Shown: positions 4,420 through 49,818 of the stretch, piece by piece
How positions within the stretch are numbered: position 1 is the stretch's first letter
How the letters are laid out: each line of letters opens with the position of its first letter
Assembly: GCF_000633935.1 (NCBI RefSeq)
Contig: NZ_KK214995.1
Span: 99,408-163,407 of the forward strand
Direction: 5' to 3'
DNA: 64,000 bases
Source: Ectothiorhodospira haloalkaliphila ATCC 51935
GTDB lineage: Bacteria; Pseudomonadota; Gammaproteobacteria; Ectothiorhodospirales; Ectothiorhodospiraceae
Notes under the pieces: generated by a model
The model's database searches: none
What the model saw: only the letters and a program-made list of their open reading frames with translations
Told to the model about the DNA's origin: nothing
Made by a program: the position numbers and the translations under genes

Positions 4420-6723
4420 ATGTTTCTTGAGGTGCGACGTCTGATCGCCGGCACGGGCCTGGCCATTGCCCTGGCCAGTACCCCCACCATCCTGCATGCC
4501 AGCAATGAGCGGTTTGTCATTGAGGATATCGAAGTGGAGGGTCTGCAGCGCATCGCTGCCGGCACCGTTTTCAGCTACCTGCCGGTGGGTGTGGGGGATT
4601 CCTTCGATGAGGCCCAGAGTGCCGAGGTGATCCGTGCCCTGTATCGTACCGGCTTCTTCTCGGACGTTTCGCTGCTGCGGCGTGACGGGGTGCTGGTGGT
4701 GATGGTGGAAGAGCGCCCGGCCATCAACGAGATTCGCATCAGTGGCAACCGGGACATCAAGACCGATCAATTGATGGATGCCCTGCAGCAGGTGGGCATG
4801 GCCCGCGGCCGCGTGTTCAACCGCAGCGTGCTCGAGCGGATGGAGAACGAGTTGCTGCAGCAGTATTTTGCCCGAGGCAAGTACAACGTCCAGGTGGATG
4901 TGGAAGTGGACGAGCTGCCCCGCAACCGCGTGGATGTGGTCATTGATATTGCCGAAGGTCGGGTGGCCCGTATCCAGCAGATCAATCTGGTGGGTAACGA
5001 GACCTATACCGACCGGGAGCTGACCCGCCGTTTTGATTCCGGGGCGCCACCCTGGTACAACCCCTTCAGCCGACGTGACCATTATTCCCGCCAGCGCCTG
5101 TCGGGGGATCTGGAGGAGTTGCGTTCCCGCTATCTGGATTCGGGTTTCGTGAATTTCAATATTGACTCCACGCAGGTCACGCTCACCCCGGATCGCAAGG
5201 ACATCTACGTCACCATCAATATCGATGAGGGTGATCAATACTCCATCAGCGAAGTGAGTCTGGCAGGCGACCTGGTGGTCAGCGAGGAAGAGCTTCGTGA
5301 GTTGCTGGACATCCAGCCCGGGGACACCTTTTCCCGCAGCCGCATCACCCGCAGTGCCAACGCCATCAGCGACCGTCTGGGCGATGAGGGCCATGCGTTC
5401 GCCAACGTGAATCCCATCCCCGAACTGGATGAGGAGAATCAGACGGTGGCGCTGACCTTTTTCGTGGACCCCGGGCAACGGGTGTACGTGCGGCGCATCA
5501 ATTTCAGCGGTAACACCCGTACCCGGGATGAAGTCTTCCGCCGCGAGATGCGACAGATGGAGGGGGGCTGGTATTCCGCATCCAACGTGGATCGCTCCCA
5601 GGTGCGTCTGCAGCGGCTCTCGTATGTGGAAAACGTGAATGTGGAAACCCGCCGCGTTCCCGGCACGGAGGATCAGGTGGATCTGGACATCACCGTGCGC
5701 GAGCGCCTGTCGGGCAACTTCATGGTGGGTGCGGGTTATTCCCAGAGCCAGGGGGTTCTGTTCAACACCAGTCTCTCCCAGGAAAACTTCTTCGGTACGG
5801 GTAACCGGGTCTCCCTGGCCGTGAATACCAGCCGGGTGAGCACCCTGTACAGCCTCTCCTATACCAACCCCTATTACACCATTGACGGCGTCAGCCGGGG
5901 CTTCAATATCTTCTATCGGGAAACGGATGCCTTCCGGGCTGACATCTCCCGTTACTCATCCAACCGGTTCGGGGCCAATGTCACTTATGGCATCCCGCTG
6001 ACCGAGTACAACACCTTCCGGATCACGCCCGGGTTCGAGAGCGTGGAGATTCTCACCTCGGACAACACGCCCGACGAGATCTTCGACTATCTGGAGACCG
6101 AGGGGGATCGGTTCGACCTTTACACCCTGACGACCAGCCTCAGTCACGATACCCGTAACCGCACGGTGTTCGCGGAGAAGGGCAATCTGCAACGGGGCAC
6201 GCTGGAATTCTCCCTGCCCGGTAGCGATCTGGAATATTACAAGATCGACTACCGTAACCAGCTGTTCGTGCCGGTGCGGGATAACCTCACCTTCAAGCTC
6301 TCCGGAGAGGTGGCGTATGGGGAGTCTTACGGGGATACGTCGGATTTGCCGTTCTTCGAGAAGTATTTTGCCGGCGGTACGCGCTCCGTGCGTGGCTACC
6401 GGGATCTCAGCCTGGGCCCCCGTGACAGCCGCGATGACCCCTTCGGCGGCAACTTCCGGGTGCTGGGCGGGGCCGAGTTGATCTTCCCGCCGCCCTTCAT
6501 GGAGGAGGCGCCCAACGTCCGCATGAGTCTGTTCCTGGATGCAGGGCAGGTCTATCCCAGCTACGATGACTTCAAGGCGGACGAGATCCGTGCCTCGGTG
6601 GGCGTCGGCATGACCTGGTTGTCGCCGGTGGGCGCGTTGACTTTCAGTCTGGCCGAGGCGTTAAATGACGAGCCTGGTGACCGCCTGCAGTCGTTCCAGT
6701 TCAACATTGGCGCCTCCTTCTGA
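4420..6723 (+). CDS. bamA: BamA outer-membrane protein assembly factor
   Basis: Core of the BAM complex that folds beta-barrel proteins into the outer membrane. The 767-residue protein begins with a probable signal peptide ending near ILHAS-NE. Five POTRA domains fill about residues 25-420, and a C-terminal 16-strand barrel ends in phenylalanine (GASF). The barrel loop motif found as VRGF in E. coli is VRGY here, a conservative change. Genes before (rseP) and after (skp) belong to the same envelope-assembly module, which in E. coli is partly sigma-E controlled; I did not find a clear sigma-E promoter inside rseP. Confidence 0.96.
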
Positions 6724-21796: not shown

Positions 21797-23095
21797 GTGC
21801 TCAAGGACCTCGTCCAGGCCCTGGAACGTCTGCCGCCGGCACGACGGTGGTTGGTGGGGCTGAGCGGGGGGCTCGATTCCGTGGCCTTGTTGCACGGGCT
21901 GGCGCAACTGGACGCTCCGCCAGGCTCCCCTGGCTTGCGGGCGGTGCACGTGCATCATGGTCTTCATGCCCGTGCGGATGAGTGGGCCCGACAGTGCCAG
22001 GTGCTCTGTGATGCCCTGGAGGTGCCACTGGAAGTGGTGAACGTGGATGCCCGGCCCCGGCGGGGCCAGAGCCCCGAGGCAGCCGCCCGCCGGGCACGCT
22101 ATGAGGCACTGGCCGACCGGATGGCCCCCGGTGACGCCCTGCTGACCGCCCATCACCGCCGCGATCAGGCGGAAACCCTGCTCCTTCAACTCCTGCGTGG
22201 CGCCGGCCCTGCCGGGCTCTCGGCCATGCCCCGCTGGCAGCCCTATGGTTCAGGCTGGCACGGTCGGCCTTTGCTGGACATGGATCGCTCCGTTCTCGAG
22301 GCCCATGCCCACCAGCATGACCTGGTCTGGGTGGAAGACGACAGTAATACCGACCTGGGGCTGGACCGCAATCTTCTGCGCCATGAGGTGATGCCCCAGC
22401 TGCGTCAGCGTTGGCCGGCCCTGGATACCACACTGGCCCGAGCCGCGGGCCTGCAGGCGGAGGCCCAGGAGCTTCTGGCGGAGCGCGCCCGGGAAGACCT
22501 GCAGGACCTGCGAGGGGAGGTGGCAGGCACCTTGTCGATTCCGGCGATCCGTGCCCTGCGCCGGCCCCGGCAACGCAACGCCGTGAGAGGCTGGTTGCAG
22601 GAGAAGGGGTTGCCGGTACCGAACCAGAATCGCCTGGAATCCCTGTTGCGCCAGATTCGGGATGCCAGTCCCGATACCCGGCTGCGGGTGAGCTGGCCCG
22701 GGGCAGAGGTGCGCGGGTATCGGGACAGTCTCCATGCCATGGCGCCATTGCCGCCGGTGGACCCTGGGCGGGTATGGTCATGGGATGGCACGACGGAACT
22801 TCACCTGCCCGAACTGGGGATGACCCTATCGGTAGAGGAAATGGCCCGCCTGCATGAACTGGACCCTACCCGCCTTGCATGGCCGCTGACGGTGCACCTG
22901 CGCCGGGGAGGCGAAACATGCCGTCTGCGCGGACAGACCCGAATCCTCAAGAAACTCTTCCAGGAGGCAGGCATCCCCCCATGGGAACGGGAACGCATTC
23001 CCCTGATATACGCCGGCGATCGTCTTGCCCTGGTGTGGGGCCTGTGGTGCTGTGATCTCCCGACCGGGGTGGTTGGCGGTGAAGCATCTGAGTGA
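21797..23095 (+). CDS. tilS: tRNA(Ile)-lysidine synthetase
   Basis: Modifies C34 of the tRNA-Ile CAU anticodon to lysidine, so it reads AUA rather than AUG. The PP-loop ATP motif SGGLDS is at residues 23-28. Further down are the helical TilS domain and the C-terminal beta domain with KKLFQEAGIPPWERERIPL. The start is GTG 21797 with AGGAG nine bases upstream; 432 residues matches the family. Its last 17 bases overlap hypD, an unusual partner. Confidence 0.95.
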   Translation: MLKDLVQALERLPPARRWLVGLSGGLDSVALLHGLAQLDAPPGSPGLRAVHVHHGLHARADEWARQCQVLCDALEVPLEVVNVDARPRRGQSPEAAARRARYEALADRMAPGDALLTAHHRRDQAETLLLQLLRGAGPAGLSAMPRWQPYGSGWHGRPLLDMDRSVLEAHAHQHDLVWVEDDSNTDLGLDRNLLRHEVMPQLRQRWPALDTTLARAAGLQAEAQELLAERAREDLQDLRGEVAGTLSIPAIRALRRPRQRNAVRGWLQEKGLPVPNQNRLESLLRQIRDASPDTRLRVSWPGAEVRGYRDSLHAMAPLPPVDPGRVWSWDGTTELHLPELGMTLSVEEMARLHELDPTRLAWPLTVHLRRGGETCRLRGQTRILKKLFQEAGIPPWERERIPLIYAGDRLALVWGLWCCDLPTGVVGGEASE

Positions 23096-43064: not shown

Positions 43065-44222
43065 TTACTTGGCGGCCTTGGCCAGGGCGTCGGCGCGGTC
43101 GGTGCGCTCCCAGCTCACGCCCAGGTCTTCACGACCGAAGTGGCCGTAGGAAGCGGTCGGACGATAGACCGGCTTCTCCAGGTCCAGCATGGTCAGGATG
43201 CCATAGGGGCGCAGATCGAAGACGTCGCGGACGATTTCCGTCAGACGGGTCTCGTCGATCTTGCCGGTGCCGAAGGTTTCCACGGCGATGGAGGTGGGTT
43301 CGGCCACACCGATGGCGTAGGAGACCTGCACTTCGCAGCGCTCGGCCAGGCCGGCGGCCACGATGTTCTTGGCCACATAGCGGGCGGCGTAGGCAGCGGA
43401 ACGGTCCACCTTGGAGGGGTCCTTGCCGGAGAAGGCACCGCCACCGTGACGGGCCATGCCGCCGTAGGTGTCGACGATGATCTTGCGGCCGGTCAGACCG
43501 CAGTCGCCCAGTGGGCCGCCGGTGACGAAGCGACCGGTCGGGTTGATGTGGAACTTGGTGCCCTTGTGCAGCCATTTCTCGCCCAGCACAGGCTTGATGA
43601 TCTCTTCCATCACGGCTTCCTGCAGATCTTTCTGTTCGATCTCGGGAGCGTGCTGGGTGGAGAGCACCACGGCGTCGGCAGCCACGGCCTTGCCACCTTC
43701 ATAGCGGAAGGTCACCTGGCTCTTGGCGTCGGGACGCAGCCAGGGCAGGGTGCCGTTCTTGCGCACTTCGGCCTGGCGCTGCACCAGCTTGTGGGAGAAG
43801 TGGATGGGGGCGGGCATCAGCACGTCGGTTTCGTTACAGGCATAACCGAACATCAGGCCCTGGTCACCGGCACCCTGTTCTTCCGGGCGGCTGCGATCCA
43901 CACCCTGGTTGATGTCCATGGACTGGGCGCCCAGGGAGTTCAGCACGGCGCAGGTGTTGCCGTCGAAGCCCTTGTCGGAGCTGTCGTAACCGATGTCCAG
44001 AACCACTTCACGTACCAGGTCTTCCAGGTTCAGAACGGCAGTGGACTTCACCTCACCGGCGATCAGCACCATGCCCGTCTGGGTGACGGTCTCCGCGGCC
44101 ACGCGGGCCTTGGGATCCTGCGCCAGGTAGGCGTCAAGGATCGCATCGGAGATCTGGTCGGCCATCTTGTCCGGATGGCCTTCGGAGACGGATTCGGAGG
44201 TGAATAGATAGGTCTTGCTCAT
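43065..44222 (-). CDS. metK: S-adenosylmethionine synthetase
   Basis: Makes SAM from methionine and ATP. 385 residues. [28 protein letters not shown] and the phosphate-loop [19 protein letters not shown] are intact. AGGAG lies before ATG 44222. It is 57 bases downstream of the sarcosine/dimethylglycine methyltransferase gene on the same strand and shares the terminator at 42985-43020, so it probably forms a three-gene operon whose two upstream enzymes use three SAM per betaine made. Confidence 0.97.
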
Positions 44223-44279: not shown

Positions 44280-45116
44280 TCAGGCCTTGCGGAAGCGGAA
44301 AATGCCCCAGCACAAGTGCCCGGCCTTGCCACCATCAACCCAGTGTTGCAAACCTTTCTTCATGCGTGCGATGTAATCGTCTGAAATCAGCCCCTTGAGG
44401 CTTTCCTCGCGGGATTCCAGCTCCTTGAGCACCCGCCCGTAGTGGCGCGGCAGCTGGTGACTGTGATCCTCGAAGCCGATTTCTTCAAGACCCACCTTGC
44501 TGGCGGCTTCCCGGTAGAATCCGGGGGAACCCAGGGTTTCCAGGTGGATGCGGTCGAGGATGGGCTGCAGCTTCTCCTTGGGTGCATCGTCGGTCTGCAT
44601 CGGGTCGGTGAAGATGAACACGCCGCCCGGCTTGAGCACGCGGGCCACTTCCTCCATGACCTTCATGCGGTTGCCGCTGTGCAGGATGGAATCCTGGGAC
44701 CAGACCACGTCGAAGCTGTTGTCCTCGGCCGGGATGGATTCGAAACTGGCGTCAAGCACGTCGACGAGATGATCCAGCTTGAGGGCCTTGTTCATCTGCC
44801 GGTCGCGCTCGTTCTCCACCTCGCTCAGGTTCAGCGCCTTGACATGGCATCCGAAGGTGGTGGCCAGGTAGCGAGCCGCGCCACCATATCCAGCACCGAT
44901 ATCCAGCACCTTCATGTCGCTGGTGGGTTCGCCCAGCAGGTCACCCATGTGAGCGACGGTGCGGCGGCTGGCATCCGGAATGGCTTCCTCGTCGGACTCG
45001 TACAGACCGATGTGGATATCCTCACCACCCCACACCCGGTGGTAGAAGTTATCGGCGTCTTCGCTGTTGTAGTAGTCGCGGGCAGTGGCGACGGCACCTT
45101 CATACTGATTCGTCAT
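44280..45116 (-). CDS. sdmt: Sarcosine/dimethylglycine N-methyltransferase
   Basis: Class I SAM methyltransferase, 278 residues, catalysing sarcosine to dimethylglycine to glycine betaine. SAM loop VLDIGAGYGGAARYL at about 70-84. The N-terminal stretch YYNSEDADNFYHRVWGGEDIHIG is typical of SDMT-type enzymes, and C-terminal SHQLPRHYGRVLKEL also fits. Remembered sequence of the Halorhodospira halochloris enzyme agrees well. ATG 45116 overlaps the gsmt stop by one base. Together the two make the osmoprotectant betaine de novo from glycine. Confidence 0.92.
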   Translation of the reverse strand: MTNQYEGAVATARDYYNSEDADNFYHRVWGGEDIHIGLYESDEEAIPDASRRTVAHMGDLLGEPTSDMKVLDIGAGYGGAARYLATTFGCHVKALNLSEVENERDRQMNKALKLDHLVDVLDASFESIPAEDNSFDVVWSQDSILHSGNRMKVMEEVARVLKPGGVFIFTDPMQTDDAPKEKLQPILDRIHLETLGSPGFYREAASKVGLEEIGFEDHSHQLPRHYGRVLKELESREESLKGLISDDYIARMKKGLQHWVDGGKAGHLCWGIFRFRKA

Positions 45117-45925
45117 TATTCTTTCCCCGTATATTTTTTGCTGGCTACGTGGATGAAGAAGTCCGGTTCAGTGTCGTGGTAGGTTTCCTTGAAGTCGCCG
45201 TAGGTTTCGATGTTCTGGAAACCCACCTCGCGCATCAGGCGGCGCACATAAGGCTTGCGCAGCGGGAACATGTTCAGGTGAAACACGGACTTGTCCGGGA
45301 AGGCGTAGCGGAAGCGAGCCAGGCCGTCGTCCACGTGTTCCGGATACACCGAGACGTTGTCGCCGCAATAATAGAAGGTGTGCGCACTGGAATAACCGTG
45401 ATCCAGGATGGCGTCGTAGTTGCGCTGGTCCAGGATCAGGACGCCGTCATGATTCAGGGCGGCATAGAACTCGGCCAGCGCCTTGCGGCGATCGTTTTCG
45501 TTGAACAGATGGGTGAAGGAGTTACCCAGGCAGACAACGGCATCGTAGCGGCCATAGATGTCGCGATTGAGTTCGCGCCAATCAGCCTGTGTGGTGCGCA
45601 GGATGTGGCCACGCTTGCGGCCGTTTTCGAAGGCCTTGACGAGCATCTCGGGAGCGCCGTCAACGCTCACCACGTCGAAGCCGGCTTCAAGCAGGCGCAC
45701 AGAGTGAAAACCGGTACCGGTGGCCACGTCGAGCACGCGCTTGGCGCCACGCTTCTTGAGTTCCTGAATGAAGAAGTCGCCTTCGCTCTTGGCGCGACTG
45801 TCCCAGTCGATCAGATCATCCCATTTGTCGACGAACGATTCGGTGTATTCCTTCACGTAGTTGTCGGTGTCGCGACGTTCTACCGGCTTCTCGCCAAAAT
45901 CCTGGTCTGTCATGGTGTTGGACAT
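45116..45925 (-). CDS. gsmt: Glycine/sarcosine N-methyltransferase
   Basis: Class I SAM methyltransferase, 269 residues, doing glycine to sarcosine to dimethylglycine. SAM motif VLDVATGTGFHSVRLLE at about 64-80; FVDKWDDLIDWDSRAKSEGD and LDQRNYDAILDHGY match the H. halochloris enzyme almost word for word. ATG 45925 (MSNTMTDQDFG) with GGGGA eight bases upstream is preferred; an ATG at 45943 adds six residues. First gene of gsmt-sdmt-metK. The acidic composition fits a salt-tolerant enzyme. A long hairpin-rich leader precedes it. Confidence 0.94.
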   Translation of the reverse strand: MSNTMTDQDFGEKPVERRDTDNYVKEYTESFVDKWDDLIDWDSRAKSEGDFFIQELKKRGAKRVLDVATGTGFHSVRLLEAGFDVVSVDGAPEMLVKAFENGRKRGHILRTTQADWRELNRDIYGRYDAVVCLGNSFTHLFNENDRRKALAEFYAALNHDGVLILDQRNYDAILDHGYSSAHTFYYCGDNVSVYPEHVDDGLARFRYAFPDKSVFHLNMFPLRKPYVRRLMREVGFQNIETYGDFKETYHDTEPDFFIHVASKKYTGKE

Positions 45926-46314
45926 AGTGATGTTCCCCGCCATTTGAGGTGTTTGATTTGCGTTGCATCGCGCGGCGCTCAGCGCCTCCACGATATCGAC
46001 CACACCGCCATGACCGGGCCGAACGATTCGACCCTGTCTGCGATGCGTGGCCGGCTTGATGCTTGCCGGCGATGGTGTCCGCCTCCACCATCGAACTCTG
46101 TGCTGGCGTGTTGCTGTGTCCTGTAGAAGAGTCGCGACCGCCCGGATCCTGCAATCACCCAAAGGGTGCGGGGGTGCGTCTTCCTTGTGACGGTTACCGC
46201 GGCCGGGTCGTGGGGCACGACCGTTTCAATGACCTTCGGGCCAAGTAGCCCGAGTGCGGAAAACCGTGGACGCCTTGTTGGCAGGTGGTCGCCCCACGGG
46301 GCGACAAAATAATA
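45926..46314 (-). promoter_or_regulatory. Hairpin-rich candidate 5' leader of gsmt operon
   Basis: Part of the largest gap in the window (45926-46803). Six perfect short-range inverted repeats lie in a row: 46288-46305 (8-bp arms), 46236-46253 (6), 46206-46222 (7), 46156-46168 (5), 46069-46092 (8) and 46049-46069 (6). A TATTAT -10-like element on the minus strand (46309-46314) would start a transcript at about 46300, giving a leader near 375 bases. No convincing protein frame. I do not recognise a known riboswitch class. The rest of the gap, 46315-46556, shows nothing I can name. Confidence 0.4.
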
Positions 46315-46556
46315 TGAACTCCGACTACGTTATTGCTCGCGCCAAAGACCTGCCTGGTTGCGGCTGATTACCACACTGCATTGCGTGGCGGTCACCGTAT
46401 GCACCTTCAAGGTTATGCGCTGATGCATCCTTAGTAGCTTGGGGGACTTTCGCGAAGAATGCAAGTTTGGGCCCTGGGGATTCACTGAATCTTCACGCGA
46501 GAGGGCGCGTATCTCGTCACTCATCACGACACCTGCGTGCGCCCTGGAATGCGCTA

Positions 46557-46572
46557 TGTCGCAAACCCCACA
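46557..46572 (+). promoter_or_regulatory. NifA upstream activator site
   Basis: TGTCGCAAACCCCACA is a perfect TGT-N10-ACA, the NifA binding consensus. It lies 116 bases before the -24 element at 46689, within the usual 80-150 base range. Between site and promoter is an AT-rich stretch (46633-46653) where IHF could bend DNA. Confidence 0.7.
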
Positions 46573-46656
46573 TTGGGGCAAATGCCCTGTTCTGGTGCGC
46601 TACGCCACCCGCCGCGAGGGCGGGGTGGAAGGATTAAATTGTGATCCAAAACATGA

Positions 46657-47346
<690 letters not shown>

Positions 47347-48619: not shown

Positions 48620-49045
48620 ATGCATCTTCCCGAGTTTCCACAGCGTGAAGCGGATGAAAACCATCTCATCCCACTGATCAACATCGTCTTCCTGCTGCTG
48701 ATCTTCTTCATGGTGGCTGGTGCCTTGTCTTCCCAGGATGTGTTTGATGTGGAAGCTCCGGATTCGAGCATCGAAGAAGAGGTGAACGATGAGGGCTGGC
48801 TGGTCCTGCTGGGAGAGGGGGGGCGTCTGGCCTTCGAGAATGAGGAGCTGGAGAGTGAGGCCCTCAAGGCGCGTCTCGTGGAGGCCCTGGATGCGAGTGA
48901 AGGCGACGAAACCAGCCCCCAGCCCGCCGTGCGCATCAAGGCAGATCAGGCTGCCACCACAGAGGAACTGCTGGATCTGATGGAACTTCTCAGGGATGCC
49001 GGTGTGGAAAAAGTCATGCTGCTCACCGTGCTTGGTGATCATTGA
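48620..49045 (+). CDS. exbD: ExbD-type biopolymer transport protein, second copy
   Basis: 141 residues. Membrane helix around [20 protein letters not shown]: where ExbD1 has the proton-carrying Asp (PLID), this copy has Asn (PLIN), so the key acidic residue is missing at that position. The periplasmic part is strongly acidic. The ATG has a weak ribosome site; translation is probably coupled with the preceding gene. It is likely a structural or regulatory partner of ExbD1 rather than a second proton carrier. Confidence 0.88.
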
Positions 49046-49047
49046 TC

Positions 49048-49818
49048 ATGCAGATTCGAGGTTTTCCATGGGTCGTTGCACTGCTCCTGGCCGTGGGGGT
49101 GCACGCCTCCGTGCTTTGGTACCTGGCGCGCACGGACACCGAGGTCGACGGCGCTGAAGCACCGGGTGAGTCCGGTGTGGTCATCGACCTGGGGCCTGCA
49201 GGCCGCACCCTTGGAGATCCGGAGGCACTGCCCGAACCGGAACCCGAGCCGGAGCCCGAACCGGAGCCCGAACCGGAGCCCGAACCGGAGCCCGAACCGG
49301 AGCCCGAACCCGAGCCCGAGCCCGAGCCAGAGCCCGAGCCGGAGCCAGAGCCCGAGCCAGAGCCCGAACCCGAGCCGGAGCCACAGCCCGAACCGGAGCC
49401 GGAGCCCCGCGAGCCCGCAGAGGATCATCCGCGGGAAGCGTCGGTCCAGGGGGAGGAAAGTGAGCATGAAGCCCCCATGGACGAGGTCCGTGACGCACCC
49501 GCTGCCGACCAGGGTGGAGGCGATCCCGCCGCAGAGCAGGATTATGCCCGGGAGCTGCGCGCCTGGCTGGAACGTCACAAGGAATATCCCCGTCAAGCTC
49601 AGCGTCGGCGACAGGAAGGGGTGGCCACGGTGCGGGTCACCATCGACCGGGATGGCAACGTGCTCTCTTACGAGCTGGAGCAGGGGTCCGGCCACGGTCT
49701 GCTGGATCGGGCGGTGGAGGACATGATCCGCCGTGCCGACCCATTACCCGCAATGCCCGCCGATATGGGACAGTCGCGTTTTACCTTCTCGCTCCCGGTC
49801 TCCTTCAACCTGCGTTAA
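49048..49818 (+). CDS. tonB: TonB energy transducer with long Glu-Pro spacer
   Basis: 256 residues. N-terminal membrane anchor at about 8-27 ([19 protein letters not shown]) containing the conserved His19. From about 62 to 120 the protein is almost pure Glu-Pro repeat, the rigid spacer that spans the periplasm, with no Lys-Pro section as in E. coli. The C-terminal domain (about 165-256) has [20 protein letters not shown], typical of TonB. A TTG at 49042 could add two residues, but ATG 49048 is preferred. Last gene of the exb operon. Confidence 0.93.
49231..49406 (+). repeat. In-frame Glu-Pro coding tandem repeat inside tonB
   Basis: About 29 consecutive six-base units of the form GAR-CCN, many grouped as 12-base GAACCGGAGCCC blocks. 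Near-identical units at 49249-49308 suggest recent slippage or unequal exchange; the later units vary more. Length change in steps of six bases keeps the reading frame. Confidence 0.9.

Follow-up and report, generated by a model that had tools for sequence, protein, structure and literature searches.

The gsmt locus and its relatives

The window, by which we mean the whole stretch of 64,000 nucleotides analysed here (Ectothiorhodospira haloalkaliphila ATCC 51935, contig NZ_KK214995.1, positions 99,408 to 163,407), carries the gsmt, sdmt and metK genes on its minus strand, and a divergent flavodoxin gene lies at 46804, on the other side of the gsmt upstream region. The three genes were assigned as follows.

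45116-45925, minus strand: gsmt, glycine/sarcosine N-methyltransferase (NF051855, 500.4 bits, cut-off 350)
44280-45116, minus strand: sdmt; best match sarcosine/dimethylglycine N-methyltransferase NF041675, at 451.7 bits below the cut-off of 550
43065-44222, minus strand: metK, methionine adenosyltransferase (TIGR01034, 611.2 bits, cut-off 309.4)

The gsmt gene is 85-99% identical to gsmt in seven other Ectothiorhodospira genomes, those with species names being E. marina, E. mobilis, E. shaposhnikovii and E. lacustris. For wider comparison, 80 gsmt loci were kept out of 191 confirmed ones. The genus alignment of the upstream region comprises five sequences: E. haloalkaliphila, the genome G009, E. 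marina, E. mobilis and the genome G005. A DNA-similarity search of 47 genomes of the family recovered the leader ahead of gsmt in five of them and gave one further match, of 27 bases, elsewhere.

Two further observations concern the gene content. The E. haloalkaliphila genome has a second GSMT-like gene (L082, G000:C4:823110-823850) that is 47% identical to gsmt, and GSMT-like second genes with 44-47% identity also occur in G003 (with one internal stop), G004, G005 and G009. Within the window, an ORF at 49042-49818 contains a long Pro-Glu repeat, looks TonB-like and follows ORFs that resemble ExbB/ExbD.

Inverted repeats upstream of gsmt

The earlier note had described six perfect short-range inverted repeats in a row upstream of gsmt. 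All six are present on the minus strand, from 46305 to 46050, with the arms and loops that it gave. We list them as H1 to H6, together with two predicted structures, H7 and H8, that were absent from its list.

46288-46305, minus strand: H1, 8 bp, loop of 2
46236-46253, minus strand: H2, arm of 6, loop of 6
46206-46222, minus strand: H3, arm of 7, loop of 3 (CCC)
46156-46168, minus strand: H4, arm of 5, loop of 3
46070-46093, minus strand: H5, arm of 8, loop of 8
46050-46070, minus strand: H6, arm of 6, loop of 9; base 46070 is common to H5 and H6
46001-46047, minus strand: H7, long interrupted stem with 19 predicted pairs
45974-45986, minus strand: H8, hairpin

Counting perfect, non-overlapping hairpins with arms of at least 5 bases and loops of 2-9 bases in the segment of 266 bases gave five hairpins with 34 arm bases in sum. 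None of 1000 dinucleotide shuffles reached 34 arm bases, which bears out the suggestion that the density exceeds chance, and at least five hairpins occurred in 1.9% of the shuffles. Among 479 window tiles of 266 bases, which include tiles that overlap this region, two reach 34 arm bases and 15 reach five hairpins.

The hairpins differ in how they are kept within the genus. At the site of H1, E. mobilis forms an 8-bp hairpin of other sequence, and none of 1000 shuffles folds as well. The outer U-A pair of H2 is C-G in E. marina, and its innermost C-G pair is lost in the other four sequences, while E. marina has A-U, and G009 G-U, in place of one G-C pair of H3. Two pairs of H4 are changed on both sides, in a stretch that is poorly aligned. 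H5 is not kept, five of its seven counted pairs being broken in E. mobilis and G005. In E. mobilis, H6 is a 9-bp hairpin and H7 is shorter.

Each of the eight genus leaders compared is predicted to form a hairpin at the H8 position (p 0.013-0.15), with weak values in the anchored-hairpin test for E. haloalkaliphila (0.13) and G009 (0.15). The same test, in which several anchors were not located and H6 was mis-cut in the marina, shap2 and lacus leaders, gave p 0.053 for H1 and 0.157 for the 5′-end stem of E. haloalkaliphila, and 0.060 for H3 in the E. lacustris leader. When whole blocks were folded against shuffles, the p values were 0.063 for H1, 0.111 for the H4 region and 0.066 for H8 in E. 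haloalkaliphila, and 0.138 for the H4 region and 0.091 for H7 in E. mobilis, whose mis-cut H8 block (89 nt) was left out of the comparison.

The predicted 5′ boundary of the leader

The six hairpins belong to a longer object, the predicted gsmt leader. In the genus alignment (n = 5), conservation rises at ACTTGCAT...CCCCCAAGGTATTAGGGATGCATC, the box at 46464-46436, and continues to gsmt, which would put the length of the gsmt leader at about 505 nt.

46459-46464, minus strand: putative -35-like hexamer TTGCAT, from the alignment; this box type occurs in 28 of 37 gsmt loci
46436-46441, minus strand: putative -10-like hexamer CAAGCT, after a 17-base spacer; few matches to TATAAT, CAAGGT in relatives
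45926-46430, minus strand: predicted gsmt leader, about 505 nt, its start placed by the identity profile of the alignment

Upstream of the box, E. haloalkaliphila and E. mobilis share 39% identity, compared with 83% inside it and 59% across the leader; the corresponding values for E. marina are 66%, 86% and 87%. The earlier note had placed the hairpins between gsmt and a -10-like TATTAT at 46309-46314. That hexamer exists on the minus strand, but it is not conserved, the four relatives reading TATTTA, CATGTAT, TCTTCT and TCTTCT at the aligned positions, and the box lies about 125 bases upstream of it. The proposal of a long, hairpin-rich and apparently non-coding leader is supported, but not the 5′ boundary that the note gave it, as the conserved box is further upstream. 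An N-terminally extended gsmt frame was considered and rejected, given open-frame lengths from 291 to 401 aa across eight orthologues and indels in the leader.

Read as TTGCAT-N17-CAAGCT, the box has sigma-70-type spacing but few consensus bases (five of 12 in E. haloalkaliphila), and it is a putative promoter. A sigma-70 consensus scan listed neither TATTAT at 46309-46314 nor the box as a promoter. Of the 37 loci counted (L001-L035, L037 and L038), 28 contain a pattern of the box type in the 700 nt that precede gsmt, 329-545 nt ahead of the start codon, compared with 0 of 37 on the reverse strand of this stretch, 1 of 37 in coding sequence and 0 of 36 further upstream; the hits are not independent, because some of the counted loci had served to define the pattern. 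Nine counted loci lacked a match (L006, L016, L018, L020, L024, L029, L032, L034 and L037), and so, for the pattern's first form, did four loci outside the 37 that likewise carry the gammaproteobacteria label (L054, L065, L070 and L077). The E. haloalkaliphila box ends in CAAGCTA where the pattern wants GTA and would therefore fail it; a pattern of the E. haloalkaliphila type has a single occurrence in its own genome.

Folding strength and covariation

A 387-nt piece of the E. haloalkaliphila leader region folds at z -2.77, and the leader taken as 507 nt folds at z -3.17 against 60 shuffles and -2.79 against 40. For 22 hand-chosen leaders, which come from six named genera and from three MAGs that lack a genus name (G009, L003 and L005 were unscored), the mean folding z is -2.24, with 11 leaders below -2. 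The control means are -0.33 for 17 coding stretches, -0.29 for 16 stretches upstream of the promoter and -0.60 for nine window tiles; one of the coding stretches and two of the tiles fall below -2. The coding and upstream controls come from 17 non-Ectothiorhodospira loci (16 for the upstream stretches), whose leaders average -2.29. Weak values were obtained for E. mobilis (-1.26) and G005 (-0.44), and none of the four scored Halorhodospira-type leaders is lower than -1.08.

The sense strand folds lower than the antisense strand in 16 of the 22 leaders (means -2.28 vs -1.44, Wilcoxon p 0.017), the p value being only a guide because the loci are related. Since the antisense mean is also below zero, part of the folding signal is not strand-specific. 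In the two most structured 120-nt segments, z is -3.19 and -3.45 on the transcribed strand vs -1.34 and -1.81 on its complement; some weaker segments show the opposite order.

Compensatory change was scored for eight local E. haloalkaliphila hairpins in alignment A2, which holds five sequences in two clusters and takes its structure from one of them. Paired cells make up 83.2%, vs 33-46% with slid partners, and covariation is 0.177 vs 0.025-0.083, a value matched by none of 500 shuffles. Seven pairs are changed on both sides vs 0-5 with slid partners (9 of 500 shuffles were as high), and the number of further pair types is unremarkable (133 of 500 shuffles). Changes that preserve pairing, one-sided as well as two-sided, are present in the genus leaders. 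The earlier note had named covariation in homologous leaders as a check on its hairpins; such covariation is present, at a moderate level, in these five sequences. The alignment thus gives moderate support for a conserved secondary structure with compensatory changes in the genus leaders. A long-range helix between GGTGACCGCC and GGCGGACACC was not retained as conserved structure: it is nearly invariant, and covariation therefore cannot test it.

Folding z scores, covariation and strand bias together support selection on the RNA structure of the gsmt-sdmt-metK leader. The hairpins are probably part of a structured RNA leader of about 500 bases that has been kept by evolution.

Leaders in other genera

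Among chosen leaders from 11 groups, no k-mer of 8-10 bases was shared between genera above chance. Seven Halorhodospira-type leaders, four labelled Halorhodospira and three from Ectothiorhodospiraceae MAGs (L019, L025, L026, L030, L031, L033 and L038), have a common stem in which the elements GACCCGGA and GGCT and an internal loop are invariant; its covariation is 0.304 vs 0.016-0.148 when slid. This stem, at about 2600-2800 of its loci, may constitute a separate RNA family. A model of the stem, R1, recovers its own seven members. Its best other match among 39 sources (16.6 bits, E 0.04) is at 22609-22683 of the window, outside the leader, and a match in the L028 leader scores 12.0 bits (E 1.3); over the 47 genomes of the family there is one match, in G007, with 27.8 bits over 40 nt. 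R1 does not find the Ectothiorhodospira leaders, and the stem was rejected as a shared family.

Thirteen Thioalkalivibrio leaders form hairpins of their own, with seven of 35 predicted pairs changed on both sides. The genera share the box and the presence of a long structured leader, rather than one RNA family. We also noted by eye that the L003 and L005 leaders contain a palindromic insertion, a repeat of the TGGATTCCCGCTTnCGCGGGAATGAC type, which is absent from the L004 leader. Allowing up to two mismatches, this type of repeat occurs 276 times in G001, 101 times in G007, 117 times in G008 and not at all in the E. haloalkaliphila genome.

Predicted pairing at the gsmt ribosome-binding site

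One short leader element can pair with the gsmt Shine-Dalgarno (SD) region.

46279-46285, minus strand: CCTGCCA, invariant in five of five sequences; can pair with the SD-bearing TGGCGGG at 45942-45936 or with GGCAGG at 46354-46349

The predicted probability of pairing between CCTGCCA and the SD is 0.75 in E. haloalkaliphila, 0.54 in G009 and 0.44 in E. marina, and that of pairing with the upstream GGCAGG is 0.19, 0.38 and 0.37, respectively. In these three sequences the two forced CCTGCCA states differ by 0.4-1.7 kcal/mol. In E. mobilis and G005 the probability of SD pairing through CCTGCCA falls to 0.0 and 0.01, respectively, and the SD is covered in part by a local hairpin; because the pairing is nearly absent there, the GGCAGG/CCTGCCA/TGGCGGG switch stays a lead. 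Among 35 start sites of the window, a script-chosen and uncurated set, the gsmt SD is the fourth least accessible.

Interpretation of the leader

Our preferred reading, to which we give a tentative probability of about 45%, is an untranslated leader of about 505 nt that starts from the box at 46464-46436 and works as RNA on both ribosome access and mRNA life. Transcription of gsmt-sdmt-metK would begin from this box, and the leader would act as RNA after transcription start. Most likely, it would limit ribosome access to the gsmt start, with CCTGCCA pairing to TGGCGGG in E. haloalkaliphila, G009 and E. marina, and it would also set the life of the mRNA. Ionic or osmotic conditions could then shift GSMT output at a constant mRNA level.

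A somewhat unlikely alternative is that the leader is a stability or processing element, with stems such as H7 being cut by RNases or protecting from them. The long interrupted stem of H7 and the chain of hairpins speak for it, and so does the finding that leader sequence varies by genus while structure density stays, which fits a need for helices rather than for one fold. There is also a published precedent for this kind of mechanism, the control of betT mRNA by RNase III under osmotic stress in E. coli (PMC4067347). However, we found no stem conserved across genera, and H7 is shorter in E. mobilis.

We regard it as unlikely that the region serves chiefly as cis-regulatory DNA for the flavodoxin gene and gsmt on either side of it, in which the repeats are protein sites or chance GC palindromes and RNA structure is incidental. 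The divergent gene at 46804 would suit such a region, the blocks GGATGCATCAGCGCA and GGTGCATACGGTGACC are conserved in primary sequence, and the antisense strand also folds better than shuffles. Yet the sequence upstream of the box is less conserved than that downstream, folding is biased toward the sense strand, base changes on one or both sides preserve pairs, and the H1 site keeps a hairpin with another sequence, all of which argue against this alternative. Distinctly unlikely, in our estimate, is a reading in which several genera share one gsmt promoter type and each has kept its own non-homologous long structured leader that reads intracellular ionic strength or betaine directly by folding and so sets GSMT translation; this would be an RNA osmosensor reached several times with different folds.

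Sensing of a ligand by the leader is not favoured, and a riboswitch of an undescribed class that binds an ion, betaine, glycine, SAM or SAH appears quite improbable. A long leader ahead of a SAM-consuming osmolyte operon invites the idea, as do the high conservation of its 5′ part, the near bistability of SD pairing in three of five sequences and the invariant internal loop of the Halorhodospira-type stem. Against it, no Rfam family reached its gathering score anywhere in the window, and at E ≤ 10 the region 45700-46800 gave only three chance-level matches: mir-200, SOX2OT and, on the opposite strand, a Fluoride fragment of 16 bases. The suggestion of the earlier note that SAM, SAH or glycine might be sensed is unsupported, with no such family among these leader-region matches; the salt sensing that it also put forward may still apply. 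In relatives, none of the 18 + 6 loci scanned had an Rfam match in the leader, no core common to the genera was found, and the SD switch is not kept in E. mobilis and G005. SAH riboswitches (RF01057) were detected in three of the 18 loci, from Aquisalimonas and Arhodomonas (L024:6029-6109, L020:6017-6097 and L037:5937-6024), but the gsmt start lies about 3 kb upstream of these sites. The L024 site stands directly before an ORF that starts at 6127, downstream of metK, and that we take from its resemblance to S-adenosylhomocysteinase to be ahcY-like.

Attenuation by a leader peptide or an intrinsic terminator is not favoured and seems very improbable: an open frame (MHQRITLKVHTVTAT...) starts near the predicted 5′ end and 17 of 80 loci, including both E. 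shaposhnikovii loci (where the site is weak) and Alloalcanivorax L029, have a terminator-like site within the 520 nt that precede gsmt, but a 5-base indel breaks the frame in E. mobilis and G005, and the leaders of E. haloalkaliphila, G009, E. marina, E. mobilis and G005 have no terminator-like site. In Alloalcanivorax L029, a terminator-like hairpin with a T run lies about 71 nt before gsmt.

Significance and comparison with known systems

Control of ribosome access and mRNA life by the leader can be set beside physiological data from Thioalkalivibrio versutus D301. In that study, salt raised betaine about 40-fold while gsmt and sdmt mRNA did not change significantly, and its authors propose post-translational control through enzyme activity (PMC9062515). 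T. versutus strain AL 2 (L010), of the same species as D301, carries the long leader. Control of translation or mRNA life by a leader fits the D301 result as well as control of enzyme activity does. In D301, mRNA levels do not explain the rise in betaine (PMC9062515), and the combination of the promoter-like box with a structured leader of about 300-500 nt, shared by several genera, is a concrete candidate site for post-transcriptional control. A literature search by titles and the beginnings of abstracts, with subscription papers mostly outside its reach, returned no description of a gsmt leader.

Three known systems invite comparison. The SAH riboswitch RF01057 resembles the present case in occurring near the betaine genes, as it does in three of the 18 relatives scanned; it differs in that its L024 copy precedes the ahcY-like gene rather than gsmt, and it has no match in the window. 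The Na+ riboswitch, or DUF1646 motif, is likewise an RNA leader tied to osmotic genes (PMC9337991), whereas the gsmt leader is without an Rfam match; the main text of that paper lacks the word "ectoine" and has "betaine" once, for extended data on E. coli salt stress (PMC9337991). In the E. coli betT mRNA, a stem-loop of an osmolyte gene affects expression post-transcriptionally under osmotic stress (PMC4067347), a likeness to the role proposed here; betT, however, encodes a choline transporter, whereas the gsmt leader precedes a biosynthetic operon and has a series of hairpins that spans about 500 nt.
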